NCBI GenBank assembly: GCA_017450105.1
Contig: JAFSXC010000114.1
Coordinates: forward strand, 1 to 32,908
DNA from: Lachnospiraceae bacterium
Lineage (GTDB): Bacteria > Bacillota > Clostridia > Lachnospirales > Lachnospiraceae
DNA: 32,908 nucleotides
Direction: 5' to 3'
Program-made: the position numbers and the translations under genes
Shown here: positions 1 through 24,260 of the stretch, piece after piece
Position numbering within the stretch: the first letter of the stretch is position 1
Layout: every line of letters starts with the position of its first letter
The notes under the pieces: generated by a model
Database searches by the model: none
What the model was told of the DNA's origin: nothing
Seen by the model: the letters and a program-made list of their open reading frames with translations, nothing else

Positions 1-375
1 ATGGCGGGTCAGAATCTGGACGAGAGCATTTTAGACAGCGAGGGGCTGACCGCCGGCTTATGTCTTGCCTCTCTGGACGAACAGAAGAAGCCGGTGGCCT
101 GTATTCTCGGCCGGGTACATAAGAAGGAGATCGCAATTCTTTATCTGGTCAATTTTTCAAAGGACCCGATGATGCTTACGGAGCTTCTGCGGGCCTTCCG
201 GGATGCGGTCATGGAGGTAAGCTACCGGGACAGTGAGCTCATTTTTGTTACAATGGATGACAAAATGAAGAGGTTCGCAGAAATGCTTCTGGAGGATAAA
301 GAAGCCCTGGTATGGGAAGGAAAAGTGATAAGTGCGATAAGGATGATTCCGGAGGAAGATGACAATGGAAAATGA
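1..375 (+). CDS. Unidentified small protein or C-terminal part of a larger one; weakly GNAT-like
   Basis: The frame is open from base 1, so the first ATG may be internal and the gene may start before the window. The 124 visible residues alternate strand and helix: a segment around residues 30-50 with a beta-strand look (CILGRVHKKEIAILYLV), a helix with LTELLRAFRDAV, then strand LIFVTM and another helix. This layout resembles the C-terminal half of a GNAT acetyltransferase, but I see no clear acetyl-CoA motif, so this is a guess from texture only. Its 3' end overlaps the start of the giant kinase-like gene by 11 bases, and the GGAGG at 351-355 inside it is the ribosome binding site of that gene, so the two are probably translationally coupled. 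Confidence 0.5.
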   Translation: MAGQNLDESILDSEGLTAGLCLASLDEQKKPVACILGRVHKKEIAILYLVNFSKDPMMLTELLRAFRDAVMEVSYRDSELIFVTMDDKMKRFAEMLLEDKEALVWEGKVISAIRMIPEEDDNGK

Positions 376-3300
376 AACAGAACTGAGAATTAAGGAAAAA
401 CAGAATCCGATACCCTATGAGTCCCGGCTCGTTGAGGACCTTGAGAAACGTGCCGCGATCGGAAAAATGGAGCAGACCCTCCAAAATGACAGGCGCCTTC
501 GGGGGGCGTTCGCTTTTAAACGCCATACCGATGACGTGGATGCGAACATTCAGGCGCTGAAGGAACGGACCAGGACGGATAGCCTCGGAGCTTATCTGGA
601 GAAGAAGACCCATGTGAATCTGGAGTCCTCCGGCTGGCTTTCGCAGCAGAAATTCCCGACGGAGGAGGATTTGAACAAGGAGATGGATCAGGCGGCCGAG
701 ACGGTCTTCGGAACCGCCAATGTCAGTCTGTCCCAGAGAACCAAACGGGGAAAGAAGTTTAAGGAAAAGGCGAAGCTGCAGGCGAAGATGATGAATCAGA
801 TGAACGACTTCGTCTGGAAGCGGGATGCGGCCATGGATGCGGCGCTTTTGGTGGGGAAGAACCTCTTCCTCGGGAAGGACGAGACCATACAGAACGACAC
901 CGAGGGAGAGCGAGATGTATTCGGACGCAATAAGACCGCCTTTTCCTTCTTCCATCAGATCAGCGGGAACATGGAGAGAAACGAGCGCTTCGGGACCATG
1001 GCGAAGGACATGGCCATGTTTTCTCTTTTCCGGGAAGCAGAAGAAAACTGGTCGAGGGAGGACTATCTGAAAAAGGCAAAGGATACAGCCCTCCTTCTTT
1101 CGAACATGTACAACAAAAAGGAGACGTACCGGGAGGAAGCGGTAAAGATCTTAAGGGACCTGAAGGAACTGGATCTTTCTCAGTTTGAATATGCCTCCAA
1201 TGAGGAGTTTGCCCAGGGAGAGGGCGCCCGGTCCTTCTCGAGAAGATTTGCCGCGCTCCGGATGTATTCCCATGGGATCACGCTTCTGGAGGAGGTAAAG
1301 GACGTTCCCGAGATCGCGGAGCAATATGATTTTCTGCGCAAAAAAGCAGAGCTTATCCGGGAGATCGCTGAGGATTATGAAAGCCGCGCGCTTCTGATCC
1401 AGTCTCCTTATTTTGCGCTTCTGGCATCGAAGGATTTTGACAGTATTCCTACGGAGGAGCTGGAAAAGCGAAGGGATATCACAGACGATGAAGCGGCAAA
1501 GCTCTATCTGACCGAGGTGATCCATCAGAGACGGCGGAAGGGCTTCGGCAGGGGAAGGAAGACGGATGAGCTTTTGGCCCGGCCGCTGGAAAAGCGCGAA
1601 GAAACGACAAAACAAACGGTTGAGGAACGGACCGTAGAGACCTGGAAGACCCACGAGGACAGGGCGAAGGAGCTGTTTGAAAGCAAAAAGACCTTTGGGG
1701 ACAGCTCTCTTATGAAGGCCGTAAAAGAGAACGTGGGCAAGGTGGAAGCACAGCTCCTGGAACGGGTGAATAAGGACAATTACCGGGGGAAATTCGGAGA
1801 AGCTCTTTTGGCCTATCAAAAAGCGATCGAAAGCTGCGACCGGTATCTTGAAGAGCGCACGTCCGATTCCGAAACCGCGGCAAAGCGGAGACGGCTTGTG
1901 ATCGAAAACCGGGACCAGATGCTTTCGGATATGGAGACCCTGGCCTCGGCGGAGGAGCTGGTAAACAACGGGCAGATCGATGTGGATGCCACAGACCTGC
2001 CGCTGAACTTTATTCTGTCCAGCGCAGCCGTATTGCTCCTTCCGGGGGTGGAGACTGCGAAGCGTGAGGAGAAAACCGGATCGCAGAAGGAAAATCTTAT
2101 CCCGCTGTCCGAGGCCCAGGGCTTTACCGGGCTGAACCTTCTTTTCCGGCCGGATACGAAAACCGTAAGGAAGGAGGAGGAAGCAAAACGCTATGCCGAT
2201 GAGATCGGAAAGCTTCGCCGCTTTCTGAAGGAGCTTTCTTTGGAGAAGGGAAGAGTCTCCTCGTCCTATACAAGGGTGTTCGGCAGGCAGCTTCTGGTTA
2301 CGAAGGATGCGTCGGGCGGCGTTACCTTACGTACCGGGGATCAGAGGGTAAGCTTAAAGGAGAGCCTTTCCGACCTTATTCACCTTCTGGATACCAAGAT
2401 GATCGAGGAGCAGGCCATTCTGAACCCGGAGGACATCAAGGATGTGATCTGGGATCAGGACATTACAATCGAATTTTTGCTGAATGACGATGAGGAGAAA
2501 TCCGTAAAGCATATCCTTAGGGATATGGGAGATGTCCAGAGAACCTCGAAAAATCTGGCCCGGTTTTTAGAGCTGAAGACCGGAAAGAGCACGGTATTTT
2601 TCTCCAATCTGGAGCCGGCGTATTTACGCTGGATCGCTTTAGACATCGTACGCGGTGTCGATATGGAGGTGGTCATCAAGCAGCTGGAACGCGTTTCTGC
2701 GGCTGTAAACAGAGAAGAGAGGACCATCAATACCAGAGAGACGCTGCAGCTCATCAAAGAGGCAGAGAAGAAAAAAGAGGAGATAGACGAAAAAATCGTC
2801 TATCGGACAAAGATGGAGCAGGAGGAACGAAAGGGATGGCAGCCTGAGGAACAGGAGACGATCCATTTTCTGTCCGATCTATTCTTTTCCCGGGAAACCT
2901 GGAAGGCGGATGAGAGCGTAAATGACCCCGGAGAACGGCTGCGGCTCATGCTGGATTCGCATCTGGACGTATTCACACGCTTTGTTATGGACACGAAAGA
3001 CGTAAAAAAGATCGGCCTTTTGCCCACCGTCATCGGAAAGCTCCCGACCGACGTGGGAAAGGTGATGACTCCGGTTCTGTTCCTCGTCAACAATCTGATC
3101 CTGGAGGCCGGAAAGCTGGCGGGAACTACGGCCGATGAAAAGCAGCTCAAAGCGAGGCTGAAGGAGCTGATCGACCAGAAGAACGAGGGCCTTATGAACT
3201 TGCTGAAGTCCACGGACGGCATTCTCGGGAATGTGGTGGAGCAGATCATGGGGCAGATCCAGGATCAGATCAATACCCATGCGGACCACCTTTTCGGTAA

Positions 3301-6300
3301 TGAAGAGAATACGGCGGAAAACGAAGACGGCGTAGAGATCATCACGCCGGAAGCCATAAGGGAGGCTGCAGAGCGGAAAAAGGAAGCGAAGAAGCCCAAA
3401 ACCAAAGAGGATATCGTAAAGGAGGGGGAGGAAAAGCTGAAGAGCATGATGGAGGATTCCATCAAAGGAAATTCCGGCCAGGGTCTTTTTATCAAGCTCA
3501 TCTTCAAGGATTATTTTAAGCGATCCTCTATGATGGATAAGCGCAGTATGCTCGCCTCCGCGATCCGGAACGCTGCGGTAAAGGAGGAGCAGATCCTTGT
3601 GCCGGAGGAAGCCGGGGAGGAGGAACGGCTTCTGGCACAAAAGATAAATGAAGACATAGAGAAACAGGAGCAGGGCGACTTTTTGGGCGGGATCCTGAAG
3701 GGTGCCGGCCCACTCTTCCAGAAAATCCTGCAGGGACTTCCTACGGATGGCGTGGAGGAACACATCCGGGCCGCGCTGGAGGACATGAAATCAAAGCTTG
3801 CTCCGATCCCCGAGGAGATTGTGAAGGCCCAGCTCTTCGGTATGGTCGAGCGGTCCGGCGGAAGGATTACAAGGATCGAGGTGGAGAAGGCCCTTGGCGC
3901 CGCTTCGGTGGGACAGACCTTCCTTTGCAAAATGTACGGTCCCGACCTCCCCGAGGAAGGACGGGACGTGGTGGTAAAGCTTTTAAAGCCGGATGTCCGG
4001 AACCGTATGATGCGGGAGAAGCAGATCCTTCTGGACTGCGCGAGACGTACAGACACCTCCGGCGGTATGGAGGCGACCTTCCTCGGCCAGCTCTCCCGGA
4101 TTGAGGAGGAGCTGGATCTGACCATTGAAGCCAGAAACGTGAATCTGGGAAAGATCTACGATAAGTCCGTGATCGAGGGACAGGATTCGGACGGCGTACG
4201 CTCCATGAAGCTCGAGACCCTGGTCGATCCGACCGTGAACGCGATGATGCTGGAAATGGCGCCGGGGATCACCGTGGACCGGTATAAAAAGGAGCTGATC
4301 CAAAAGAGAGAGGAAAGAGAAAAGGAATTTGAACGAAGACCGGAGGAGATCGCGGATATCAAAAAGCTGAAGGCGCCGACGGAGCCGAAATGTAAACGAA
4401 ACGGTAAGGACCTGACCTTCCGGCAGCTCAGAAAGCTCCTGGCAGACGTTTCCGCCAAGATCATCTCAAAGGAGGAGCTTACGAACCTCGAGCCGGATCT
4501 GGAGGAGCTTCAGAGGCAGATGACAGAGTATAACAGGGAGCTCGGGATATACAACGTCGAAGCCACCAATCTCCCCGGGGAAGCGCAGAGAAATTATCAT
4601 CTGAGACTTCTGGAGCTTCGAAAGGATATTTTAAAGGACTTAACCCAGCTCGAAAAACGGGAAGCCTTTCTGGCAAAGCTTGCAAAAAAATGGGTCACCG
4701 AGGGGATCTTTGGGGAAGGCTTTTATCACGGGGATCTTCATGCCGGAAACATCATGATCAGTGACGAAGGGGCTACGATCATCGACTTCGGAAATGCCAC
4801 GAAGCTGACGGAAGCCCAGCAGAAGGAGGTGACCCGTATGGTTGCCGCTGCGGCGGCGGGAGATTGGGGTACTTATCAGGAGGGCCTGCACGCGTTAATC
4901 AATCCGGAGTTCGAGGGCGTCTATCAGGAAAAGAAGAAGGCGCTCAGTGAGGAGCTGAAAAAAATATTTACTCTGGCAGACGGAAAATCTGCCGGCCTTC
5001 GGATCGCGGCCTCTCTTCTGAAGGCGCAGGAGCTGGGGATCGAGGTTCCGTCCTCCATCCAGAACTTTTCACAGTGCCAGCTCCGGCTTCAGAATACGAT
5101 CGATGACATGATCAAGGAGATCAATGCGTTGAGGGGAGATCTCGGAAAGCTGGATGACCTTTTGAAAAATTCGGATCAGGGCCTCAACAACAATGATATC
5201 CTGAGCAACTTCCTGGTAATGGTCTCCGAGGGCAGAGACAGGGAGGAGAGCCCGGAAACAACGGCGAAGCGGAGCCATTTAGACCTGACGAGATGCTATC
5301 GGAAGATCTGCTATGAGGATCCGGAGCTTTACAGGGACGCGATAAAGAAGGGGGACTTTTATCGCTGGCGGCTGGAAGAAATGGAGAAAAAGGACGGAAA
5401 GGAAATGGCTCTGGACAAGGCCAGAAAGGAGATAAAAGCCGGGCTGGAGAAGATCAGGGAGAAGCTTGAGAAGACAAAAGAGGAGCTGAAGAAAGATCCG
5501 GAGTACCAGAACGCGGAGGAGATCATGAAGATGATGCTCCGAAAAAAGGAAATGGCCGCGCTTGTGTCCGAACTGGACAGCTCTCTTAAGAGCTCCTTTG
5601 GCCAGCTGAAGGAGGTCGCCTGTACCGATGCTCTTTCCAGGCTTCTTACGAAAACGCTGGAGTCGTATATAGAGAATCAGGATCCCGCAAAGATCGACGC
5701 GTTCAGGGACAGCCTGGACAGCTATCTCGCGCAGAGGATCGAGCTCGCAAAGCCCGTGCTCAAGGCTTACCATGAAACCGAGAAGGTACTGAAGGACAAG
5801 AAGAAAAAGGAAGAGGAGAAGGACCAGGCGATCGTAAGCTTTCTGGGTCAATACAAAAAGCTCGGCTTTATTTATGCGCAAACGTCCAAGGGCAGCTTTG
5901 AAAGCATGGAAATGTTCCGGATCAATTTAAGGGACAGCTCCGTGGATGAGATGCATACGGGCTATGCAAGGCATGAGATCGAGGAGATGGCGAAGCTGGA
6001 TCCGGAGCTGGGGGCAAGGCTGAAGGAGCTCTTTGCAGAGTATCTGGAGAAGGAGAAGGCGGAGCCGGAGAAATTCCTGGATCGGCTTCCTTTGGTGGAT
6101 CAGATGACGGAGCTCATGTTTGAGATCACGGTGAAGGTGATAAAACCCGTTTACGAGGCAACGAAAGAGAGCATGGGTATCCCCGTCCATGATTTTTTGG
6201 ATTCCATGGGCGAATCGATCGGAGAGAATTTCTACACCTCTCTCGGCAGGCTGGGAATCTTTACCGCGCTGAAATACCGATACACAACAGATATGGGGAT

Positions 6301-6304
6301 TTAA
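365..6304 (+). CDS. Giant (about 1979 aa) protein with an ABC1/UbiB-type atypical kinase domain
   Basis: The start is placed at the ATG at 365 because GGAGG at 351-355 is nine bases upstream; the ATG at 359 would leave only three. The first ~1100 residues are mostly charged helical sequence rich in E, K and R. Around residues 1130-1500 lie ABC1/UbiB signatures in order: the Ala-rich loop GAASVGQTF (about 1175), a candidate nucleotide-binding lysine in VVVKLLKP (about 1205), the catalytic-loop motif YHGDLHAGNIM (about 1455), and the metal-binding IIDFGN (about 1472). About 130 residues of charged helix are inserted between the ExD-like region and the catalytic loop. The C-terminal ~480 residues are again helical. 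Known ABC1/UbiB proteins are about 450-550 residues and often support quinone metabolism, but nothing here suggests quinone synthesis. No signal peptide is seen. Function unknown; kinase or ATPase activity is inferred from the conserved motifs. Confidence 0.85.
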   Translation: MENETELRIKEKQNPIPYESRLVEDLEKRAAIGKMEQTLQNDRRLRGAFAFKRHTDDVDANIQALKERTRTDSLGAYLEKKTHVNLESSGWLSQQKFPTEEDLNKEMDQAAETVFGTANVSLSQRTKRGKKFKEKAKLQAKMMNQMNDFVWKRDAAMDAALLVGKNLFLGKDETIQNDTEGERDVFGRNKTAFSFFHQISGNMERNERFGTMAKDMAMFSLFREAEENWSREDYLKKAKDTALLLSNMYNKKETYREEAVKILRDLKELDLSQFEYASNEEFAQGEGARSFSRRFAALRMYSHGITLLEEVKDVPEIAEQYDFLRKKAELIREIAEDYESRALLIQSPYFALLASKDFDSIPTEELEKRRDITDDEAAKLYLTEVIHQRRRKGFGRGRKTDELLARPLEKREETTKQTVEERTVETWKTHEDRAKELFESKKTFGDSSLMKAVKENVGKVEAQLLERVNKDNYRGKFGEALLAYQKAIESCDRYLEERTSDSETAAKRRRLVIENRDQMLSDMETLASAEELVNNGQIDVDATDLPLNFILSSAAVLLLPGVETAKREEKTGSQKENLIPLSEAQGFTGLNLLFRPDTKTVRKEEEAKRYADEIGKLRRFLKELSLEKGRVSSSYTRVFGRQLLVTKDASGGVTLRTGDQRVSLKESLSDLIHLLDTKMIEEQAILNPEDIKDVIWDQDITIEFLLNDDEEKSVKHILRDMGDVQRTSKNLARFLELKTGKSTVFFSNLEPAYLRWIALDIVRGVDMEVVIKQLERVSAAVNREERTINTRETLQLIKEAEKKKEEIDEKIVYRTKMEQEERKGWQPEEQETIHFLSDLFFSRETWKADESVNDPGERLRLMLDSHLDVFTRFVMDTKDVKKIGLLPTVIGKLPTDVGKVMTPVLFLVNNLILEAGKLAGTTADEKQLKARLKELIDQKNEGLMNLLKSTDGILGNVVEQIMGQIQDQINTHADHLFGNEENTAENEDGVEIITPEAIREAAERKKEAKKPKTKEDIVKEGEEKLKSMMEDSIKGNSGQGLFIKLIFKDYFKRSSMMDKRSMLASAIRNAAVKEEQILVPEEAGEEERLLAQKINEDIEKQEQGDFLGGILKGAGPLFQKILQGLPTDGVEEHIRAALEDMKSKLAPIPEEIVKAQLFGMVERSGGRITRIEVEKALGAASVGQTFLCKMYGPDLPEEGRDVVVKLLKPDVRNRMMREKQILLDCARRTDTSGGMEATFLGQLSRIEEELDLTIEARNVNLGKIYDKSVIEGQDSDGVRSMKLETLVDPTVNAMMLEMAPGITVDRYKKELIQKREEREKEFERRPEEIADIKKLKAPTEPKCKRNGKDLTFRQLRKLLADVSAKIISKEELTNLEPDLEELQRQMTEYNRELGIYNVEATNLPGEAQRNYHLRLLELRKDILKDLTQLEKREAFLAKLAKKWVTEGIFGEGFYHGDLHAGNIMISDEGATIIDFGNATKLTEAQQKEVTRMVAAAAAGDWGTYQEGLHALINPEFEGVYQEKKKALSEELKKIFTLADGKSAGLRIAASLLKAQELGIEVPSSIQNFSQCQLRLQNTIDDMIKEINALRGDLGKLDDLLKNSDQGLNNNDILSNFLVMVSEGRDREESPETTAKRSHLDLTRCYRKICYEDPELYRDAIKKGDFYRWRLEEMEKKDGKEMALDKARKEIKAGLEKIREKLEKTKEELKKDPEYQNAEEIMKMMLRKKEMAALVSELDSSLKSSFGQLKEVACTDALSRLLTKTLESYIENQDPAKIDAFRDSLDSYLAQRIELAKPVLKAYHETEKVLKDKKKKEEEKDQAIVSFLGQYKKLGFIYAQTSKGSFESMEMFRINLRDSSVDEMHTGYARHEIEEMAKLDPELGARLKELFAEYLEKEKAEPEKFLDRLPLVDQMTELMFEITVKVIKPVYEATKESMGIPVHDFLDSMGESIGENFYTSLGRLGIFTALKYRYTTDMGI

Positions 6305-10623: not shown

Positions 10624-11652
10624 ATGAGCGAATGGGTGCTTGTAGTAGATGACGATGCGGCGAATCTTCGAATGGCCAGCCATATCCTGGTGGGAGAGGG
10701 GATGCGGGTAAGCTGTGTGAAATCCGGTGCGGAAGCCCTTTCCTTTCTGATGAATAACCGGCCGGACATTATCCTGCTGGATGTGCATATGCCGGGAATG
10801 GACGGCTTCGAGACGCTTCGAAAAATAAGAGAAAACGAGGATTACCGGAAGATCCCGGTGATCTATCTGACCGCGGATGAGGATACGGAAACCGAGAAGA
10901 CGGGCTTAAACGCCGGCGCGATGGACTTCATCAAAAAGCCCTTTGTCCCGGAGGTCATGCTGATCCGTGTCCAGCACATCATCCACCTGATCCATCTCCA
11001 GAAGAATCTCGCTATGGAGGTGGAGGAAAAGACCAGTGAGGTGGTCCGCCAGCAGGAAAAGCTGGCGAGGATCTCTCTTGAGATCGTACAGGCGCTTTCC
11101 GGAGCCATTGACGCCAAGGATACCTATACGAACGGCCATTCCACGAGAGTGGCGGAATACGCCAGAGAAATTGCCAAGCGGACCGGGTATTATTCTCAGG
11201 CGGAGCTGAAAAACATATACATGATGGGGCTTCTGCACGATGTGGGGAAGATCGGCATACCGGACTCCATCATAAACAAGCCGGCCAGACTCTCGTCCGA
11301 TGAGTTCGAACAGATCATGAACCACCCGGTCCTGGGAGCCAGGATCCTGCAGAATATCCGGGAATTCCCGGAGCTGAAAACCGGCGCAAGATGGCATCAT
11401 GAACGCTACGACGGGAACGGCTATCCGGATGGACTGAAGGGAGAGGAGATTCCGGAAAAGGCCCGGATCATCGCGGTGGCGGACGCCTACGACGCGATGA
11501 CCTCGCGTCGGAGCTACCGGGACATCCTGTCCCAGGAAACCGTACGCAGTGAGATCGAAAAGGGGAAGGGAACGCAGTTTGATCCGTTTTTTGCCGACAT
11601 CATGCTTCTTATGATGAACGAGGACCCGAACTATAAAATGAGGGAGCATTAA
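10624..11652 (+). CDS. Response regulator with HD-GYP domain (predicted c-di-GMP phosphodiesterase)
   Basis: 342 residues. A receiver domain at about 1-120 has VVDDD at the acidic pocket and LLDVHMPGMDG around the phospho-acceptor Asp. A coiled linker leads to an HD-GYP domain at about 150-335 with HSTRVAEYA, LLHDVGKIGIPD and HHERYDGNGYPDG; the metal ligands and the GYP motif are intact, as in RpfG-type enzymes. The gene starts immediately after the rsfS stop with GGAGG eight bases upstream, so it is probably co-transcribed with the housekeeping unit. Seven bases after its stop comes a hybrid kinase, which is the likely source of its phosphate. Activity on c-di-GMP is inferred from the family. 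Confidence 0.93.
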   Translation: MSEWVLVVDDDAANLRMASHILVGEGMRVSCVKSGAEALSFLMNNRPDIILLDVHMPGMDGFETLRKIRENEDYRKIPVIYLTADEDTETEKTGLNAGAMDFIKKPFVPEVMLIRVQHIIHLIHLQKNLAMEVEEKTSEVVRQQEKLARISLEIVQALSGAIDAKDTYTNGHSTRVAEYAREIAKRTGYYSQAELKNIYMMGLLHDVGKIGIPDSIINKPARLSSDEFEQIMNHPVLGARILQNIREFPELKTGARWHHERYDGNGYPDGLKGEEIPEKARIIAVADAYDAMTSRRSYRDILSQETVRSEIEKGKGTQFDPFFADIMLLMMNEDPNYKMREH

Positions 11653-14409: not shown

Positions 14410-17085
14410 ATGGCGAAAAGGTTTATGTCCTTTATTCTGGATCCGAACCGTGACCTTACTGACCGTACCTTCCTCCTGATGTCTACGATTACCTACATCG
14501 TTCTGGGCGTTATTTTTATTTGGGATATTATCATCGGAGAAACTGCTCTGAAGCTTGCCTTTCTGGGGGGAGCGCTTGTTATAATGGCCATCTTTATGCT
14601 CATCGCCGTGACAAGAAAGCTGGTGCAGCCCATCGCCACATTGATCTGCGTGATCATGATCTTCATTCTGCTGCCTGTGGAGTTTTTTACCGGCGGCGCG
14701 GTAAACGGCTGCACACCGATCTGGTATGCCTATTCCTTTATGTATGCGGGTGTGAACCTGAAGGGAAGAAAACGGATCGCCCTGATTCTGGCGATCCCGG
14801 TTTCGGCGATCATCTGCTACTGGCTGGCCTATAAATATCCCTATCTGGTGACTGTTCACGATCCGACGACCGGGTATCTGGATTCCATCGCCTCGTTGAT
14901 CGGTGTCGGGATTATGCTGTATTTTATCGTGACCTTCCTGATCCGGATCTTCTTAAAGGAAAATGAGATCGCGAAAAGCCAGAAGGAGGAGATCGAGGAA
15001 CTGAATAAGAGCCAGAGCCGGTTTTTCTCCAGCATGAGCCATGAGATCCGGACCCCGATCAATACCATTATCGGACTGAATGAGATCACCTTAAGGGATG
15101 AGGAGATCAGCCAGGACGTTGCGGAGAACTCCCTGAATATCCAGTCGGCCAGCAAGATGCTGCTGACGACGATCAACGATATCCTGGATATGAGCAAGAT
15201 CGAATCCGGAAAGATGGAGATCGTTCCGGTCGAATACGATGTGGGGAATATGCTCTCCGAGATCGTGAACATGATCTGGGCCAGGTGCCGCGAAAAGGGA
15301 CTGGAGTTCCACATCGATGTGGACCGGAATATGCCGCGGCGCCTCTTCGGCGACGAGATCCGGATCAAGCAGATCCTGATCAATATTTTAAACAATGCAA
15401 TAAAATATACGGACAAGGGCTCCGTTACGCTCCAGGTTCAGTGTACGAACACGGAGTCGAGAGAGAGGGTCCGTCTGAACTGCTTTGTTGAGGATACGGG
15501 CATCGGAATCAAGAAGGAAAACATCCCCCATCTGTTCGAGGCCTTCCGTCGTGTGGACCTGGAGCAGAACCGCCAGGTGGAGGGAACCGGCCTCGGCCTT
15601 TCGATTGTAAAGCAGCTCGTGGATCTGATGGGCGGCGAGATCTCGGTCAACAGTATTTATACCAAGGGATCGACCTTTATGATTACCCTGGAGCAGGGCG
15701 TTGTGGATTCCACGTCTCTGGGCGAGCTGGGTCTGTCCACCAGACATACCTTAAATGCCAGAGAGCATTACCGCGTCAGCTTTGAGGCGCCCAAGGGCAA
15801 GGTGCTGATCGTTGACGATAATGAAGCGAACCTGATGGTGGAGGCAAAGCTTTTGAAGGATACGAAGATCTCCATCGATACGGCGGACAGTGGAAGGGAA
15901 TGCCTGGAAAGGACGAGAACGACCGCCTACCACTGCATCTTCATGGACCATCTGATGCCCGGTATGGACGGGATCGAGTGCCTGAGGGCGATCCGCAGCC
16001 AGCCCGGCGGTCTGAACAGGGAAACGCCCGTGATCGTTCTTACGGCCAATGCCGGCATGGAAAATATGGAGCTCTATAAGAAGTCCGGGTTCGACGGGTA
16101 CCTTCTGAAGCCGGTGACCGGGCCCATGTTGGAGACGACGCTGGTCAAGCAGCTCCCGAAGGATCTGGTCCATCTTACTGATGCGGAATTTGTTTCCTCG
16201 ACGGGAGAGGAGGGCCTGTTCCGTGGCCATTCCGGAAAGCGCGCGATCCTGGTCACGACCGAAAGCGTCTGCGACCTTCCGAGGATTACGACGGAAAAGC
16301 TCAGCATTCCCGTGATCTCCTACCGGATCTACACGGAGGAGGGAGACTTTTTGGACGGGGCCGAGGTGGAGGCGGACGGCATCATCGATTACATGAAGGA
16401 AGGAAGCCGGAAGGTAAGCGCCAGAGAGCCTTCGGTTTCCGAATACGAGGAATTCTTCGCAAAGCAGCTTACACAGGCCCAGCAACTGATCCATGTTACC
16501 ATCTCGAGTCAGGTCGGGCATGGCTATGAAAACGCCTGTGAGGCAGCCAGAGCCTTTGATAATGTGACGGTTTACGATTCCATGCAGGTGTCCGGAGCGT
16601 TGGGGTTGATCGTGCTTCAGGCGAACCGTCTGGCCGCGAATGAAAAGACGGTGGAGCGTGTGATCGATCATCTGAATAAGATGCGTGAGCGGACCAGAAG
16701 CATTGTCATTACCAAATCTGCGGATCGTCTGGCAGCAGCCGGTTATATTTCCCCGCAGCTGAGAGGGCTTTCACGTGCCTTCCTTATGCATCCCGTGATG
16801 TCCGTAAGGAGAGGAAGGTACCGCCCTGTGCGCTTCTATCTCGGGAATCTCGAACGGGCCTGGGAACGGTTTTTGCGCCGGGAGCTTGCCTCCTTCCCGG
16901 AAATGGAGGATAAGCTTGCCATTGTGAACTTCGTGGGCTTAAGCTATGAACAGCAGCAAAAGATCGAGAAGCTCATCCGTACACATGCGCAGTTCAAGAC
17001 CCTGGTCTTCCAGAAGTCCAGTCCTGCGGTTTCCGCCCACTGCGGACCGCTGTCCTTCGGACTCATGTATACCATGAAGAAGTAA
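14410..17085 (+). CDS. Hybrid histidine kinase fused to a complete C-terminal DegV domain
   Basis: 891 residues. Five to six membrane segments lie within residues 18-180. HisKA has phospho-acceptor His211 (SHEIRTPINTI), HATPase_c has NNAIKY, DTGIGI and GTGLGLSI, and a receiver has acceptor Asp513 (FMDHLMPGMDG). From about 611 to the end, ~280 residues match a full-length DegV protein: the N-terminal strand ILVTTESVCDLP (usual form TDSTADLP), a REPSVSEYEEFF segment where DegV has SQPSPGEF, VTISSQVGHGYENA where DegV has ISSGLSGTYQSA, and VYDSMQVSGALG. DegV proteins bind fatty acids. This kinase has no HPt, unlike both neighbours; the DegV domain takes that place. It starts three bases after the previous stop, with GAAGGGGGG upstream. 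A fatty-acid-sensing role is inference. Confidence 0.9.
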   Translation: MAKRFMSFILDPNRDLTDRTFLLMSTITYIVLGVIFIWDIIIGETALKLAFLGGALVIMAIFMLIAVTRKLVQPIATLICVIMIFILLPVEFFTGGAVNGCTPIWYAYSFMYAGVNLKGRKRIALILAIPVSAIICYWLAYKYPYLVTVHDPTTGYLDSIASLIGVGIMLYFIVTFLIRIFLKENEIAKSQKEEIEELNKSQSRFFSSMSHEIRTPINTIIGLNEITLRDEEISQDVAENSLNIQSASKMLLTTINDILDMSKIESGKMEIVPVEYDVGNMLSEIVNMIWARCREKGLEFHIDVDRNMPRRLFGDEIRIKQILINILNNAIKYTDKGSVTLQVQCTNTESRERVRLNCFVEDTGIGIKKENIPHLFEAFRRVDLEQNRQVEGTGLGLSIVKQLVDLMGGEISVNSIYTKGSTFMITLEQGVVDSTSLGELGLSTRHTLNAREHYRVSFEAPKGKVLIVDDNEANLMVEAKLLKDTKISIDTADSGRECLERTRTTAYHCIFMDHLMPGMDGIECLRAIRSQPGGLNRETPVIVLTANAGMENMELYKKSGFDGYLLKPVTGPMLETTLVKQLPKDLVHLTDAEFVSSTGEEGLFRGHSGKRAILVTTESVCDLPRITTEKLSIPVISYRIYTEEGDFLDGAEVEADGIIDYMKEGSRKVSAREPSVSEYEEFFAKQLTQAQQLIHVTISSQVGHGYENACEAARAFDNVTVYDSMQVSGALGLIVLQANRLAANEKTVERVIDHLNKMRERTRSIVITKSADRLAAAGYISPQLRGLSRAFLMHPVMSVRRGRYRPVRFYLGNLERAWERFLRRELASFPEMEDKLAIVNFVGLSYEQQQKIEKLIRTHAQFKTLVFQKSSPAVSAHCGPLSFGLMYTMKK

Positions 17086-17118: not shown

Positions 17119-20100
17119 ATGAATTTAGATATCGTTGAAAATTTGGTTATGCTGATAGCCGGCGTCATCGGGCTTCTTTCCAGTCTTTTCCACTACATCG
17201 AAAAGCCAAAGCGCGGCTGGCTGCTGCTTACGATCTTCTTCCTGGCACATATCTTAAGCGACTACTATTGGACTCTATACACCCTTGTGATGCAGGAGAA
17301 TCCGGATGTGTCCGCCTTCATGGCCTATTTCGGCTGGAATGTGGGCTATGTTTTCATGCTCCTTGCAGTCTTAAAGATGCGGCAGGGCCCGGCAAAGCGT
17401 TACTTTCATCCGCTGATGCTCCTGCCGATCCCGCTGAATATTCTTCAGTTCATCATCTACCTTCCCTTCGGCGGGATAGTAAACAACATCTGGCAGGAAA
17501 CGCTGACTACGATCTCGGCGGTTCTCTGCCTGCAGTCGATCCTGTATTATCTGAAGAACAGAAAGGAAGGTGCGCATTTCCCGCACCTGCACCTTCTGGT
17601 TCTTCTTTTCATTGCCTCGGAATACGGTATGTGGACCTCCTCCTGCTATTTCGATTCGACGGATCTGACCAATCCCTATTATTACTTTGCCTTTGCAAGC
17701 TACCTGGTCATGATCTTTTTCGCCTGGGCCGCCGGAAGAGACTACGAAGCGGAAGGTGAGGTGATTCCCGAAAAGACCTCGGCGGAAATGCGCTTCCAGA
17801 TGGCGCTGCGTGTTCTTGCCTCCGCGATCATCATCGGCGGCTGCATCGGCGGTTACATGGTCGCGCAGTGGATGAAGCAGAGCATCCCCGGGGGGATCGA
17901 GGACGACAGCGTCCATTATTTCATTGCGGTTACGCTTTTTGTCATCTCCATTATTCTGGTGGTCCTGATCCTCGGCGTTCTGTTCGTGATCACCTACCGC
18001 TACCGGAGCTTAGAAGCCGGAACGACGGCAAAATCGGGAGAGGTCAGGCGCCGCCGGTACGGGGCTGTTTTCGTACTTCTGATCACGCTGGGCCTGATGG
18101 TCTTTTCCGTGGGCTATACCTCCAACCTCTTCTATCAGGTCTCCGTGGCCGGCGTAAACAACAGCGGTGAGGATACGGCGGAGCTGGTGGCTACGGAGCT
18201 CAAACACTACCTTTCCGACGCGACCTCCACGCTCCAGGTGACCGCGGACTCCGTAGAGTTCATGCTGCAGAATGAGGAATCCCAGGAGAAGATCCTGGCC
18301 TATCTTACCAATCAGACAGAGAAGGAGTACGTTTTCTTTGGCGAAAACCTTACCGGTCTTTACGGCTATATCCGGGGAGAGTACATGGACGGCTCGGGCT
18401 GGGTTCCGCCCGGGGACTATAATCTTAAGGAGAGAGACTGGTACCTGGAGGCCTTAAGGGGCGGGGGCAGCACAGTGATCGTCCCGCCCTATGTGGATGC
18501 GCAGACCCATTCGGTGGTCATTACGATCTGCAGGCTTCTGCAGGAGAACACTCCCTATAACGGAGAAAACGTGGTGGCGCTGGATATGATCGTGAACTAT
18601 ATTCAGGAAATCATAGAGCGGGCGGACATCAACGGCAAGGGACATGGCCTGATCGTAAACCGGGATGGTCTGATCGTAGCGCATAAGGACCCCTCCTTTG
18701 TCGGAACGAGCTTTACGGAGCTCGCCGGCCAGCCCCTTCTGGATGAGCTGATCGATATGGAATACGGGACGCTGCAGGGGGAGATGGAGGGAGAAGAATC
18801 CACCCTTTTTGTCAGCCGGATCCTGGATCAATGGTACGTTGTGATCACGGTTCCGGAATCGGAGCTTCTTTCCGATATCCGCTCGCAGATGACCATCAGT
18901 ATTCTGGTCTCGGTCATTATCTTTGGCTTGATCTCCTTCTTCTACTATCTGGGCTACAAGAGCGAACAGACCTACAGCAAGCAGCTTGAGGAGATGCGTA
19001 TCGGGCAGAAGCAGAAGGAATATGAAGCCGAGGTACTGAGGCTGGAAAAGAAGACCTCCGATGAGGCCAACAAGGCCAAGAGCAGCTTCCTTGCCGATAT
19101 GTCCCATGAGATCCGGACGCCGATCAATACGATCCTCGGGATGAATGAGATGATCTTGAGAGAGGCGGATAAGGAGGAGCTTTTGGAATACGCCAGAAAC
19201 ATCGATGCCTCCGGAAGAAGCCTTCTCCAGCTTATCAACAGTATTCTGGATTTCTCGAAGATCGAGGACGGGAAAATGGAGATCGTACCGGTGCGTTATG
19301 CGGTCAGCACCATGGTTACCTATCTGGAAAATTCCGTCTCCGAACGGGCCCGGAAAAAGGGTCTGGAATTCCAGATCTGGGTGGATCCGGAGATCCCGTC
19401 GGAGCTTTACGGGGATGAGGCCCGGATCAATCAGATCATTGTCAATCTCCTGACCAATGCCGTAAAATATACCCATGAGGGGTCGGTGAACCTGCGGATC
19501 GAAAAACGGGATAAGAAGAACGGCAGCGTCCTTTTGTATGTGGAGGTCAGGGATACGGGCATCGGTATCCGCGAGGAGGACAGGGAAAAGCTCTTTGAAT
19601 CGTTTGAACGCCTCGATATGGTGAAGAACCGGAACATCGAGGGAACAGGACTCGGGATGTCCATTACCACGAACCTTCTTTCCCTGATGGACAGCTCCCT
19701 GACCGTGGAGAGCGTCTACGGAGTCGGCTCGAGCTTCTCCTTCCTGCTTTGGCAGAGGATCGAGGAGGAGACACCGGTCGGAGAGTATCGTCAGATGGTG
19801 CTGCCGGCGGAGGAGTCCGCCCTGACTACGGAGTATCTCTATGCTCCGGATGCGCATATCCTGGTCGTGGATGATACGAAAATGAACCTTTCGGTGGTCT
19901 GTAATCTGCTGAAGCGCACCGGCATCCAAATCGATACCGCCTCGGACGGGGAGGAGGCGATCGCGCTTGCGGATAAAACAGGCTATGACGTGATCCTGAT
20001 GGATCAGAGAATGCCGGGTATGGACGGAACCGAAACGCTGAAAAGGATAAGAGGGCTGGACAGCCAAAGGAACGGGGAAACGCCGGTGATCTGCCTGACC

Positions 20101-20659
20101 GCGGACGCGATCAGGGGAGCGAGGGAACGGTACATGGCCGAGGGCTTTACGGATTATCTGACGAAGCCCGTGACCGGACGGGAGCTCGAGCAAATGCTCT
20201 GTACCTACCTCCCGAAGGAGCTGCTTTTGACCGGGAAGGAAGAAAAGCCGGTAAAGAAAAAGGAGAAGGAACCGGAGAAAACAGAAGCGGCTTCTCTGCT
20301 TCCGGCGCTGGAAGAGGCAGGGCTTGATACCGGGGAGGGCATGAACTATTGCATGGAGGATGAGGAAACCTATCGGGAGATCCTGAAGGAATATGTTTTT
20401 GACTATGCCTCCAGAAGGGAAAGCCTGACGGCCTATTATGAGCAAAAAGACTGGAAAAACTACCTTATCTTTGCCCATTCCCCTGAAGGGAACCTCCAGA
20501 GTCATCGGAGCGACGAAGCTGACGGAGGCTGCGGCCGCGCTCGAAGCGGCGGCGCACGAGGAAAACGGAGGCTACATCGAGGAGGAGCATGAGAAGACCA
20601 TGCAGCTCTATGCAGAGCTTGTTGCGGTCCTGCAAAGGCTCCTGGAGCAGAGTACGTAA
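17119..20659 (+). CDS. dCache-sensing hybrid histidine kinase; C-terminal HPt split by a one-base frameshift
   Basis: Reads as 1157 residues to 20592, but the intact form would be about 1179 residues to 20659. N-terminal membrane segments fill about 1-300; an extracellular dCache-like domain spans about 340-585 (LKERDWYLEALRG, VVALDMIVNY, GLIVAHKDPSFVG), then a TM and a coiled coil. HisKA has His663 (SHEIRTPINTI), HATPase_c has TNAVKY, DTGIGI and GTGLGMSI, and a receiver has Asp962 (LMDQRMPGMDG). The HPt His1120 is followed in frame by SPEGN, but removing one C from CCCC at 20480-20483 gives HSLKGTSRVIGA and an open frame to 20659. Kinase and receiver are intact. A short hairpin (CAGAAC 17088-17093 with GTTCTG 17112-17117) touches the GGGAG ribosome binding site. 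Confidence 0.88.
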
Positions 20660-20697: not shown

Positions 20698-21996
20698 ATG
20701 AAGAAAAGCAAAGGAGTGCTGGCGCTGATGTTGGCTGTTCTGGTCCTGATCGGCTGTGTGAGGGTCCCGGAAAGGACGATGGCGGCGTTAAAGCTCAGTC
20801 AGACGGAGGCGGTTATGACGGTGGGAGATACGCTGGAGCTTAGCGTAACGGGAACGAAAAAGAAGGTCAAATGGATCAGCAGCGACCCTGAGACCGCTTC
20901 GGTGGATACGCAGGGCGTGGTTCGTGCCGTGAAGGAGGGGGATGCGGTAATTACCGCAAGGACCGGGAAAAAGAAGCTGAAATGCTTTGTGACGGTTGTC
21001 CCGCTTCCGTTAAGCGGATTCTGGACCGCGGATTCGGCACCGGCAGAGAGCCTGCGGGAATACGTGGCGAAGGTGACGGATGAAACGGACGAGGGCTTTA
21101 TCCCGGTCAGGGACCGGATCGCCGTCTTTGACATGGACGGAACGCTGACCTGCGAAACCTTTTATACCTATTACGACACCATGATGTTCATCGAATTCTG
21201 TCTGAAGGACCATCCGGAGCGTGTTTCGGAGGAGCTGAAGGAAGCGGCAAGGGAGATCAAGCCGGGCTATACGGCGGGAGAGGAGCTGGCCAGAAACTTC
21301 GCCAGGGCCTATAAGGGAATGACGATCGACGAGCTCTATGACTATGCGGTGGAATTCGGACAGAAGAAGACGGAAAGCTTTGAAAATATGCGTTATATTG
21401 ACGGCTTTTATCTGCCCATGGTGGAGGTGGTCGAATTCCTGTATGAAAACGGCTTCACCATCTACGTAGTCAGCGGAACGGAACGAACCACCAGCCGCGC
21501 CATAGTGGCGAATTCCCCGATCAGCGAATACGTTTCTCCGGCCCATGTGATCGGCACTGAATTCGAGGTAAAGCAGAAGGGGAATGAGGAGACAGCCTCC
21601 AACATGGATTATAAATATGCCGACGGAGACGAGCTGGTCTTTACCGGAGGCTTTATCCAGAAAAATCTGAACGCCAATAAGTCCATCTGGATCGAACGGG
21701 AGATCGGCCAGCGTCCGGTCCTTGCCTTCGGGAACAGCGGAAGCGATACCAGTATGATGAACTATTGTCTGGACCATAGAAACCCCTATCCGTCGCAGGC
21801 CTATATGGTGGTGGCGGATGATGGCGAGAGAGAATGGGGCAAACAGGACTGGACACAGAAGTCGGAGGAATACCTGGCCATGGGCTATGTGCCCGTCTCC
21901 ATGAAGAACGACTTCGCCGAGATCTATCCTGAGGGGATCAAGCCGGCAGAGAAGCAGTATACGGAGCCGGAGGAAGCACTTTTGAATGCAGCCTGA
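20698..21996 (+). CDS. Lipoprotein with Big_2-like domain and HAD phosphatase domain
   Basis: 432 residues. A lipoprotein signal peptide with lipobox LIGC (Cys20) anchors it outside the membrane. Residues about 30-105 look like a bacterial Ig-like Big_2 domain (KLSQTEAVMTVGDTLEL, VKWISSDPETASVD). The rest is a HAD hydrolase: motif I DMDGTLT with Asp145 and Asp147, motif II YVVSGTERT, and motif IV GNSGSDTSMM. The cap region suggests a phosphoserine-phosphatase-like member acting on an unknown extracellular phosphate ester. AAAGGAG seven bases upstream gives a good ribosome binding site. It lies 38 bases after the dCache kinase and may be co-transcribed with it. Confidence 0.88.
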   Translation: MKKSKGVLALMLAVLVLIGCVRVPERTMAALKLSQTEAVMTVGDTLELSVTGTKKKVKWISSDPETASVDTQGVVRAVKEGDAVITARTGKKKLKCFVTVVPLPLSGFWTADSAPAESLREYVAKVTDETDEGFIPVRDRIAVFDMDGTLTCETFYTYYDTMMFIEFCLKDHPERVSEELKEAAREIKPGYTAGEELARNFARAYKGMTIDELYDYAVEFGQKKTESFENMRYIDGFYLPMVEVVEFLYENGFTIYVVSGTERTTSRAIVANSPISEYVSPAHVIGTEFEVKQKGNEETASNMDYKYADGDELVFTGGFIQKNLNANKSIWIEREIGQRPVLAFGNSGSDTSMMNYCLDHRNPYPSQAYMVVADDGEREWGKQDWTQKSEEYLAMGYVPVSMKNDFAEIYPEGIKPAEKQYTEPEEALLNAA

Positions 21997-22235: not shown

Positions 22236-22282
22236 TATTGTAATTGCTTGTGTTTTTTTGCTGGAATAATCATAATAAAGGT

Positions 22283-24260
22283 ATGTGGAACAGAAGAAGC
22301 ATCGGAAACAGAATTGCAATGATCATAGGGCTGGTGGAGATTGTCGCGATGATGCTCCTTTTTCTTGTGATGAATCGAAGCCTCACAAATATCCTTGAGG
22401 TGAAGGCGATCCATGACATGAATGTGATCGCGCATGACAGGGCCCAGATCGTTGAAACCTATATTGCGGACTGCGTGGATTTCTTAAACGGCTACGCAAA
22501 GGCTTCGGAGAACCGGGAGGTCCTTGAGCATCCCGAGGATCCCTCCTTTATACAGGCCTCCAGAGAGTATACGAACCTGTATGCCGAAGGCTATACGGAT
22601 ATTGAAGGGCTGTATGTTGCCCAATGGGATACCTATGTGCTCGCGCATACAAATCCCGATTCTGTGGACCAGACCTTCAGAGACGCCGAATCTGCCAGGG
22701 CTCTGGAGGAAATGATCCGTCTCGAGGGGAAACCGTTCTGCACGGGGATCGTACAGGCTCCGGTTACGAAGAAAATGGTCATTCCCGTCTATGCCCCGAT
22801 CAACAATAAAGCCGGAGAACCGATCGGCTTCGCGGGGGCAGCGTTTTATTCGGATATGCTGGTTGACACGCTCAATGCGGTAAACGATGAGAAAATGCCG
22901 GGCGTTGGGTATTCGCTTATCAATGTCGCAACCGGTGTCTATATTTTTGACGATGATCCATCCCTTGCCGGCACCGAATGCAGGGACCGGGAGCTCCTAA
23001 ACCATGCGAGCGGCCTTCGCTCGGGCAATGCGGACAGCAACAGCTTCAGCTATTCCTACGGGGACAAGGTCATGTGCTGTTATTATATGCCGGACCGGGA
23101 CTGGGTATTTGTCGTTCGTGATACAAAGGCTGACATTTTCGGCGTGATCAATACCGTAAGGATTTGGCTCGTCATCATCTGTCTTGTGATTACCGTGCTT
23201 ATGGTTGTGATCTGTATGGTAAGCGTGAACCGGGCAGATGAAGCCTATGGCGGCGATCAACAGAGCGATCGAGCGGCTTAAGGCTAATGATTTTTCAAAG
23301 GACGCATTAATCGAAGACTACAGCAGACGAAAGGATGAATTCGGAACCATGGCCAATGCGGTACAGGAGCTTCATTATGCGCTGGCGAATCAGTATGAGC
23401 TCTTTTATGAGATGCTCGAGTCCCAGTCTGTGGGAACCCTTGTCCTTGGCGCGGAGGATGAAAATATCGTAATGATAAATCATATGGCGCTGGAGCTTTT
23501 CGGTTTAAAGGAGGAAAGCCGCGAAGGACTTAAGATAAGCGATATCCGTGCACGGTTTGATGAGGAGGAGAATGCGCATATCCGGGAAAAGCTCGATGAG
23601 GTGCGCAGTTCGAATAAAGAAATAAGCTTTGAAGAAAGAGTGAACCATGACGACGGAACAAAGCTGGTTCTCCTTGCCTGCGCAAAAGGAATCCTGCTTT
23701 CGAATCATGACAGGGTCATCATCGTATCGCTCACCGATATTACCGAGCAGAAAAAACTCGAGGAGAGCCTTCAGATCCTTTCGGAGACGGATTTCCTTAC
23801 CTCTATCTGTAACCGGAGAAGCGGAGAGTACAGGATCGAGGAGAACATGAAGGAGGGACAGCTCGGGATGTTCTGTCTCTTTGATGTGGACAAGTTCAAG
23901 TATGTGAATGATACTTTCGGCCATGCGGCGGGTGACGCCTTGCTGATCGGGATTGCCCGGACCATGCAGAAAACGTTCCGTACCTCCGACATCCTGATCC
24001 GGCTCGGGGGAGATGAGTTTGTCGTCTTCGCTGCGGGGATCCAGGATACGACCCTGGGATCGCGGGTCCTCGACCGGTTCCTTGGGAATATGTCTGCGCT
24101 GGACGTTCCGGAGCTTCAGGGCCACAGGATAACCATAAGTCTTGGCGCCGTAATCGTTACCGAGCCGGAAGGTTTTTCCTCGATGTACGAGAAGGCGGAT
24201 TCCCTGATGTATGAAGTAAAGAAAAAAACGGGGAATGCCTATATCTTCTTTGAAGAATAA
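22283..24260 (+). pseudogene. Membrane sensor-HAMP-PAS-GGDEF diguanylate cyclase, frameshifted near the second TM
   Basis: A first frame runs from ATG 22283 to 23281 and a second from before 23238 to 24260. The first has a TM at about 8-30, a Cache-like outside domain and a second TM; the second continues with KPMAAINRAIERLKAN (HAMP-like), a PAS domain and GGDEF. Removing one G from GGG at 23232-23234 joins them as VNRQMKPMAA and gives about 658 residues. The cyclase domain has an intact GGDEF and a RxxD inhibitory site (RTSD) five residues upstream, so it looked functional before the shift. The start at 22283 is chosen over a TTG at 22244 because the sequence there begins MWNRRSIGNRIAM before the TM; AAAGG lies close upstream. 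Confidence 0.85.

Follow-up and report, generated by a model that had tools for sequence, protein, structure and literature searches.

We found that a membrane hybrid histidine kinase (HK) encoded in the window, i.e. the whole 32,908-nucleotide stretch of Lachnospiraceae DNA that was analysed, ends in a complete DegV domain and belongs to a conserved two-kinase unit that nearly always has a single phosphotransfer (HPt) domain and in which DegV marks the second kinase. We put the probability at roughly 0.5 that the DegV domain serves this paired two-kinase phosphorelay as a putative lipid-responsive input domain. The features on which the following sections draw are collected in Table 1.

Table 1. 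Features of the DegV kinase locus (positions in the window; Pfam spans in residues)
Feature	Position	Strand	Basis
REC-HD-GYP response regulator, 342 aa, candidate relay output	10624..11652	+	Pfam Response_reg 5-116, HD_5 158-321
Partner kinase immediately before the DegV kinase, membrane HK-REC-HPt, 915 aa	11659..14406	+	Pfam HisKA 187-249, HATPase_c 297-411, Response_reg 563-671, Hpt 737-816
DegV kinase, 6TM-HisKA-HATPase-REC-DegV, 891 aa	14410..17085	+	ORF, Pfam, AlphaFold2
Six-helix membrane domain, residues 16-178	14455..14943	+	Likeness to adenylyl-cyclase 6TM receptor fold
HisKA, phospho-accepting His211 in SHEIRTPIN	15013..15210	+	Pfam 202-267, alignment
HATPase_c	15349..15693	+	Pfam 314-428; N329, D362, G364, G392 and G394 invariant (98-99 aligned rows with a letter)
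Receiver (REC), phospho-accepting Asp513	15802..16134	+	Pfam 465-575; Asp in 100/100 aligned rows
DegV domain, residues 613-888, pseudo-FakB	16246..17073	+	Pfam 613-888, AlphaFold2, Foldseek
Neighbouring dCache-HK-REC kinase, HPt split between two frames, outside the conserved pair	17119..20592	+	Pfam

A complete DegV domain follows the receiver of a membrane hybrid kinase

In the core of the DegV kinase, His211, the N box, the G1 and G2 boxes, Asp513 and Lys567 are all intact, and none varies among the 98-100 rows of the alignment with a residue there (for His211, 98 of 98 such rows out of 100), and the catalytic HK and REC residues are conserved in both kinases of the pair. Pfam found no HPt in the chain of the DegV kinase itself, which on that test is not BarA-like. 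The HK-REC core is what the protein has in common with the BarA/TorS/LuxQ-type kinases in the top NCBIfam rows; it scored far under the equivalog cut-offs of these families (318 of 890 bits for BarA), and we know of no DegV domain in the BarA, TorS or LuxQ families.

A preliminary description, made from the sequence alone, had proposed a complete DegV domain after the receiver, and Pfam, AlphaFold2 and Foldseek agree on this. A profile search of the C terminus gave a strong match over residues 613-888 (Pfam E 2.4e-35, 122.7 bits compared with a cut-off of 27, profile positions 2-278 of 280), and the NCBIfam model TIGR00762 scored 140 bits compared with a cut-off of 99.7. The AlphaFold2 model of residues 609-891 had a mean pLDDT of 95.2, and its top Foldseek match was FakB2 (4x9x; E 8.1e-26, TM 0.86/0.91); FakB1 with bound palmitate (5uto) and further DegV structures that bind lipids also headed the list. 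Both the profiles and the predicted fold thus place the domain in the DegV family (PF02645/TIGR00762). The structure alignments comprised 61 rows for DegV and 54 rows for the membrane domain, picked for diversity from 98 references. In a quick tree that took in 62 of the 99 fused domains, the fused DegVs formed one clade apart from all ordinary DegVs (SH-aLRT 100).

The HK-REC-DegV order was found in 104 ORFs, or 100 after leaving out four duplicate own-genome reads (L003, L005, L006, and L012), representing 97 distinct proteins. Because the same order recurs in 97 distinct proteins, we rejected chance and an assembly artefact, such as a local join of a kinase gene and a degV gene, as its origin. 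NCBIfam would label the C terminus 'DegV family EDD domain', so the fusion is implicit in databases; among the papers listed by open-access full-text searches we found no description of a DegV-histidine kinase fusion, although one may exist.

DegV kinases are centred on Lachnospiraceae

At E 1e-70 or better, a REC-DegV profile matched 71 of 397 genomes sampled within the taxonomic family. In the order, 26 of 392 genomes were matched (24 of the same family and 2 of one other family) and, in the phylum, 3 of 398, all three in the same family; these matches include a few contig-end fragments or proteins without the REC part. The best 80 named loci were mostly from Lachnospiraceae metagenome-assembled genomes and isolates, e.g. 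Butyrivibrio sp. LC3010 and XPD2006; a smaller number carried the label Oscillospiraceae or that of other Clostridia. In 21 relatives, the DegV ORFs fell, besides fragments, into two size classes of ~280-340 and ~890-1170 aa. When the whole protein was searched against plasmids, the matches, among at least 5000 records listed, lay over the kinase part only and none covered 80% of the query, and DegV gave only 10 weak matches (20-26% identity) to phage records.

The window's own genome has six DegV matches, three ordinary and three fused to hybrid kinases; the fused ones are encoded in the window (contig C81) and on contigs C128 and C7. Two relatives (L126 and L164) seem to have split HK-REC / DegV genes, which may be frame errors since the DegV frame begins at the position of the fused junction, and these were not used as evidence. 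Locus L166 (4751-10140) has a tandem of two HK-REC-DegV genes behind a single HK-REC-HPt partner, and L086 has two DegV kinases.

None of the fused DegV domains compared has both FakB arginines

According to PMC8892158, R205 of Staphylococcus aureus FakB1 is required for FakA binding and R173 for catalysis. We placed the FakB1 numbering through an alignment in which known residues land on the expected letters; the window's DegV domain has Ala at position 62, Gly at 95, Ala at 171, Tyr at 173, Leu at 205, and His at 270. It therefore has neither Arg173 (acyl-phosphate catalysis and latch) nor Arg205 (FakA binding and membrane contact), and it keeps one of the three residues of the FakB carboxylate network (Thr62, Ser95, and His270). 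We compared 99 fused domains (the count excludes L119, whose DegV is cut by a contig end) with 32 ordinary DegVs, namely three from the same genome and the 29 best-scoring located standalone matches from relatives; a 16-row ordinary set excluded L126 and the own-genome duplicates L001, L002, and L004. Arg173 was present in 32 of the 99 fused domains compared with all 32 ordinary ones, and Arg205 in a single fused domain (L061) compared with 30 ordinary ones, the other two having Lys. Both arginines together occurred in none of the 99 fused domains, as against 30/32 ordinary DegVs. The 96 distinct fused sequences gave the same picture (R173 in 30, R205 in 1, and both in 0), and after clustering of the fused domains at 70% both arginines occurred in 0 of 79.

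The preliminary description had linked the domain to FakA or to the acyl-phosphate state, and we regard it as very improbable that DegV works in the manner of FakB by feeding FakA or sensing acyl phosphate. One FakA-like protein is indeed encoded in the genome, but so are three ordinary DegVs that have both arginines and His270, and a canonical Fak route therefore exists apart from the kinases. As none of the fused domains has both R173 and R205, we rejected a FakB-type donor to FakA. The fused domains resemble S. aureus FakB1 and FakB2 in fold, in family HMM and, across the family, partly in carboxylate-site residues, but they differ in being joined to a kinase, in lacking the docking and catalytic arginines, in having mostly Asn in place of His270, and in forming a separate clade. 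As the tested defining residues are absent, we conclude from the sequence that the DegV kinase is not a FakB.

A hydroxyl residue at 62, another at 95 and Asn or His at 270 occurred together in 65 of the 99 fused domains and in 28 of the 32 ordinary ones, and H270 was replaced by Asn in 88/99 fused domains (the window keeps His). A domain that kept its pocket and dropped the FakA partnership would be expected to show this residue pattern across the fused family. The window's own pocket has diverged (A62 and G95, with H270), which speaks against lipid input there, and its DegV domain may therefore bind another ligand or none.

DegV and HPt coexist in one subfamily

We noted two forms of the fused protein. 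The SHORT form (~890 aa) ends with DegV, whereas the LONG form (~1140 aa) has DegV followed by an HPt; the 100 ORFs split into 65 SHORT and 35 LONG, although L125, listed as SHORT, is a LONG (DegV-HPt) gene interrupted by a stop codon ahead of its HPt. Pfam found Hpt after DegV in all 35 LONG C termini, and the HPt histidine is invariant there. The DegV kinase on contig C7 of the same genome (1158 aa) also has DegV and then an HPt, which scored 23.4 bits in the whole protein compared with the Pfam cut-off of 24.6 and 26.6 bits when the C-terminal piece was searched alone. On the quick DegV tree, the distribution of the two forms needs two changes, as one lone LONG branch (L057, whose partner is also without an HPt) is separate from the main LONG clade. 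Judged by the well-supported branches alone, however, the LONG form may have arisen only once.

Further, two relatives carry DegV at the N terminus, L163 before a 6TM domain and L162 before dCache segments. The partner of each of these kinases has no HPt; an HPt closes the L162 protein, and the L163 protein is cut by the contig end. Because the N terminus is the usual position of a sensor, we counted these proteins in favour of DegV being an input domain. The L162 gene (2-3544, with L168) encodes, in order, the N-terminal DegV, transmembrane and dCache segments, HK, REC, and HPt.

These arrangements bear on two other explanations. The preliminary description suggested that DegV replaces the HPt, and a version of this idea, in which DegV itself would be the phosphotransfer module through EDD-like chemistry, could draw on the placement of DegV after REC and on the reported occurrence of EDD folds in phosphotransfer enzymes. 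However, DegV and HPt share one chain in the LONG subfamily and DegV is N-terminal in two relatives, and we consider such a role scarcely credible. Replacement of the HPt was likewise given up, given the coexistence of the two domains in LONG chains and in the same-genome paralogue, and the two N-terminal DegVs. The second explanation is that a fatty acid stays in the DegV pocket for good and acts as a structural cofactor, with the domain being a spacer that senses nothing. The core of the DegV fold is kept, and apo-FakB proteins are reported to be unstable (PMC8892158), as this explanation would have it, but one would not expect a mere spacer to be retained throughout a family as a single clade, now at one terminus and now at the other, and we think a cofactor role quite unlikely.

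DegV kinases are paired with a second kinase that complements their HPt content

The gene neighbourhoods studied were those of the fused genes of loci L066-L145 and of the three own-genome fused genes, with a few further flanks fetched. Among 66 DegV domains, no pair was more than 90% identical (L119 lay outside this comparison). We examined 66 fused genes upstream, of which 60 could be judged, four being at contig edges and two having a broken upstream ORF. In all 60 readable cases the DegV kinase gene begins where an HK gene ends, with a 4-base overlap in 30; among 26 other hybrid kinases of the same loci, taken as the control, four are preceded by an HK in this manner, and two of the four stand behind a DegV kinase.

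The HPt of the window's partner matched Pfam Hpt with E 5.4e-9, and partners of the same type occur in other loci. Pfam detected Hpt in 38 of 42 partners of SHORT genes and in 0 of 20 partners of LONG-type genes (the latter count includes L125 and leaves out L081, which has a fragmentary partner). Our own HPt model found the domain in 41/43 SHORT and 0/17 LONG partners, the exceptions being L105, with a weak HPt of 13.8 bits, and L125; as the window's partner and the C7 protein served to build this model, which matches these two by construction, we repeated the counts with Pfam, and the SHORT figure went down to 38/42. Four of 42 SHORT partners have another residue in place of the HPt histidine, and 4 of 42 fall short of the Pfam threshold, so that not every pair has a demonstrable working HPt. 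An initial rule of exactly one HPt in every pair was accordingly softened to nearly all pairs.

The preliminary description had also stated that both neighbouring kinases carry an HPt. This is fully correct only for the upstream partner; in the downstream kinase the HPt coding sequence breaks into two reading frames right after its histidine. Pfam found no Hpt in that protein because the two halves are in different frames, and the split may be a sequence error or recent decay. The suggestion that a phosphorelay without an HPt of its own would obtain one from an adjacent kinase agrees with the upstream partner and with the conserved arrangement. By eye, residues ~420-555 of the partner, between HATPase and REC, look like a degenerate receiver; Pfam Receiver_CRE1 matched one of 42 such partners (E 1.1e-4).

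The pairing gives weight to the main rival of the lipid-input reading, in which DegV is a pseudo-FakB docking module that holds the two kinases together, or holds another protein, without sensing lipid, the former FakA and membrane face having become a hydrophobic interface. Position 205 is indeed mostly hydrophobic in the fused domains (Phe in 22, Ile in 20, Met in 18, Leu in 14, and Val in 8 of 99), the partner kinase adjoins in 60/60 readable cases, DegV is found at either end of the kinase, and the window's domain has lost pocket residues 62 and 95. Docking alone, however, has no need of the polar triad at the carboxylate site that is kept in 65/99 domains, and the replacement at position 270 is one specific residue, Asn, in 88/99. 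We therefore regard docking as unlikely, though a serious contender.

A regulator of c-di-GMP is a likely output of the paired relay

The REC-HD-GYP protein encoded before the window's pair has both the LLHDVGKIG and the GYP motifs. Of the own-genome paralogues, the C128 pair lies after a REC-HD gene, and C7 has a REC-GGDEF gene downstream. Among 52 genes scanned next upstream of a pair, 36 encode a receiver, 18 HD_5, and 12 GGDEF, and BLAST placed a c-di-GMP regulator within 5 kb upstream in 24 of 53 loci, compared with 0 of 9 control kinases with both sides counted. From these upstream counts, c-di-GMP appears to be a likely, though not universal, output of the paired relay. The 55 downstream genes scanned, led by 17 receivers and 5 Na/Ala symporters, had no lipid theme and shared nothing beyond receivers.

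A close known parallel is the RpfC/RpfG system of Xanthomonas, which responds to the fatty acid signal DSF and likewise has a membrane HK-REC-HPt and a REC-HD-GYP protein, as described in PMC5391125. This architecture is matched by the upstream partner and the REC-HD-GYP protein of the window rather than by the DegV kinase itself. The Xanthomonas system has a single kinase, RpfC, whose N terminus forms a 22-residue sensor and which has five transmembrane helices (PMC5391125), whereas the system described here comprises a kinase pair along with a DegV and a 6TM domain. By analogy, the logic that leads from fatty acid to c-di-GMP in RpfC/RpfG would be the one proposed here.

A proposed model with two inputs and one shared HPt

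The N-terminal domain of the DegV kinase (14410-14943) resembles the 6TM receptors of membrane adenylyl cyclases, with a predicted fold like that of Rv1625c that includes the coupling helix. The likeness is structural only (~10% identity), helical bundles readily giving high Z scores, and Foldseek returned no match to the membrane domain at E 0.001 or better (E 0.27). In Rv1625c/Cya and mammalian adenylyl cyclases the output of the 6TM domain is a cyclase, whereas here it is a histidine kinase; the quorum sensor CqsS is grouped here with these 6TM receptors (PMC12505454, PMC4821796). The membrane domain of Rv1625c confers inhibition by C18:1 fatty acids, according to PMC12505454.

We propose that the fused DegV domain descends from FakB-type fatty-acid carriers and was retired from fatty-acid delivery, and that it would no longer be able to dock FakA or take part in acyl phosphorylation. 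It would instead be a cytoplasmic ligand-binding input, most likely for an acyl chain, with the 6TM domain as a putative second input. Ligand binding would shift the kinase/phosphatase balance of the HK in one direction or the other, and the phosphoryl group would pass from His211 to Asp513 and then in trans to the pair's HPt, which in the window would be that of the upstream kinase. From the HPt it would reach a response regulator, here most likely the upstream REC-HD-GYP protein, and c-di-GMP would be lowered.

A broader reading, which we offer tentatively and think less likely to be right than wrong, is that these are Lachnospiraceae-centred fatty-acid-sensing phosphorelays built on an obligate kinase pair with one HPt on either chain, in which the second kinase would read lipids twice, through the 6TM domain and the pseudo-FakB, to set c-di-GMP, as a Gram-positive counterpart of RpfC/RpfG made from retired Fak machinery. 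If this is true, a lipid carrier would be the evolutionary source of a signalling domain, and in gut and rumen Lachnospiraceae free fatty acids would feed directly into c-di-GMP decisions. The pairs are a naturally occurring example of one HPt serving two kinases and located on either chain, and the signal of a large uncharacterised kinase family becomes directly testable with one soluble domain.

Other open reading frames of the window

Elsewhere in the window, a 1981-aa ORF (359-6304) encodes a protein with an ABC1 atypical kinase-like domain, its best stretch being residues 1431-1504; the protein has four Pfam matches, none with its best stretch within the first 1379 residues. The ORF at 20698-21996 encodes a HAD hydrolase carrying a bacterial Ig-like (Big_2) domain at its N terminus. 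Finally, the ORF at 22244-23281 (weak dCache) overlaps that at 23238-24260 (weak HAMP/PAS-GGDEF), and the two together (22244-24260) may represent a single gene for a diguanylate cyclase receptor, interrupted by a frameshift.
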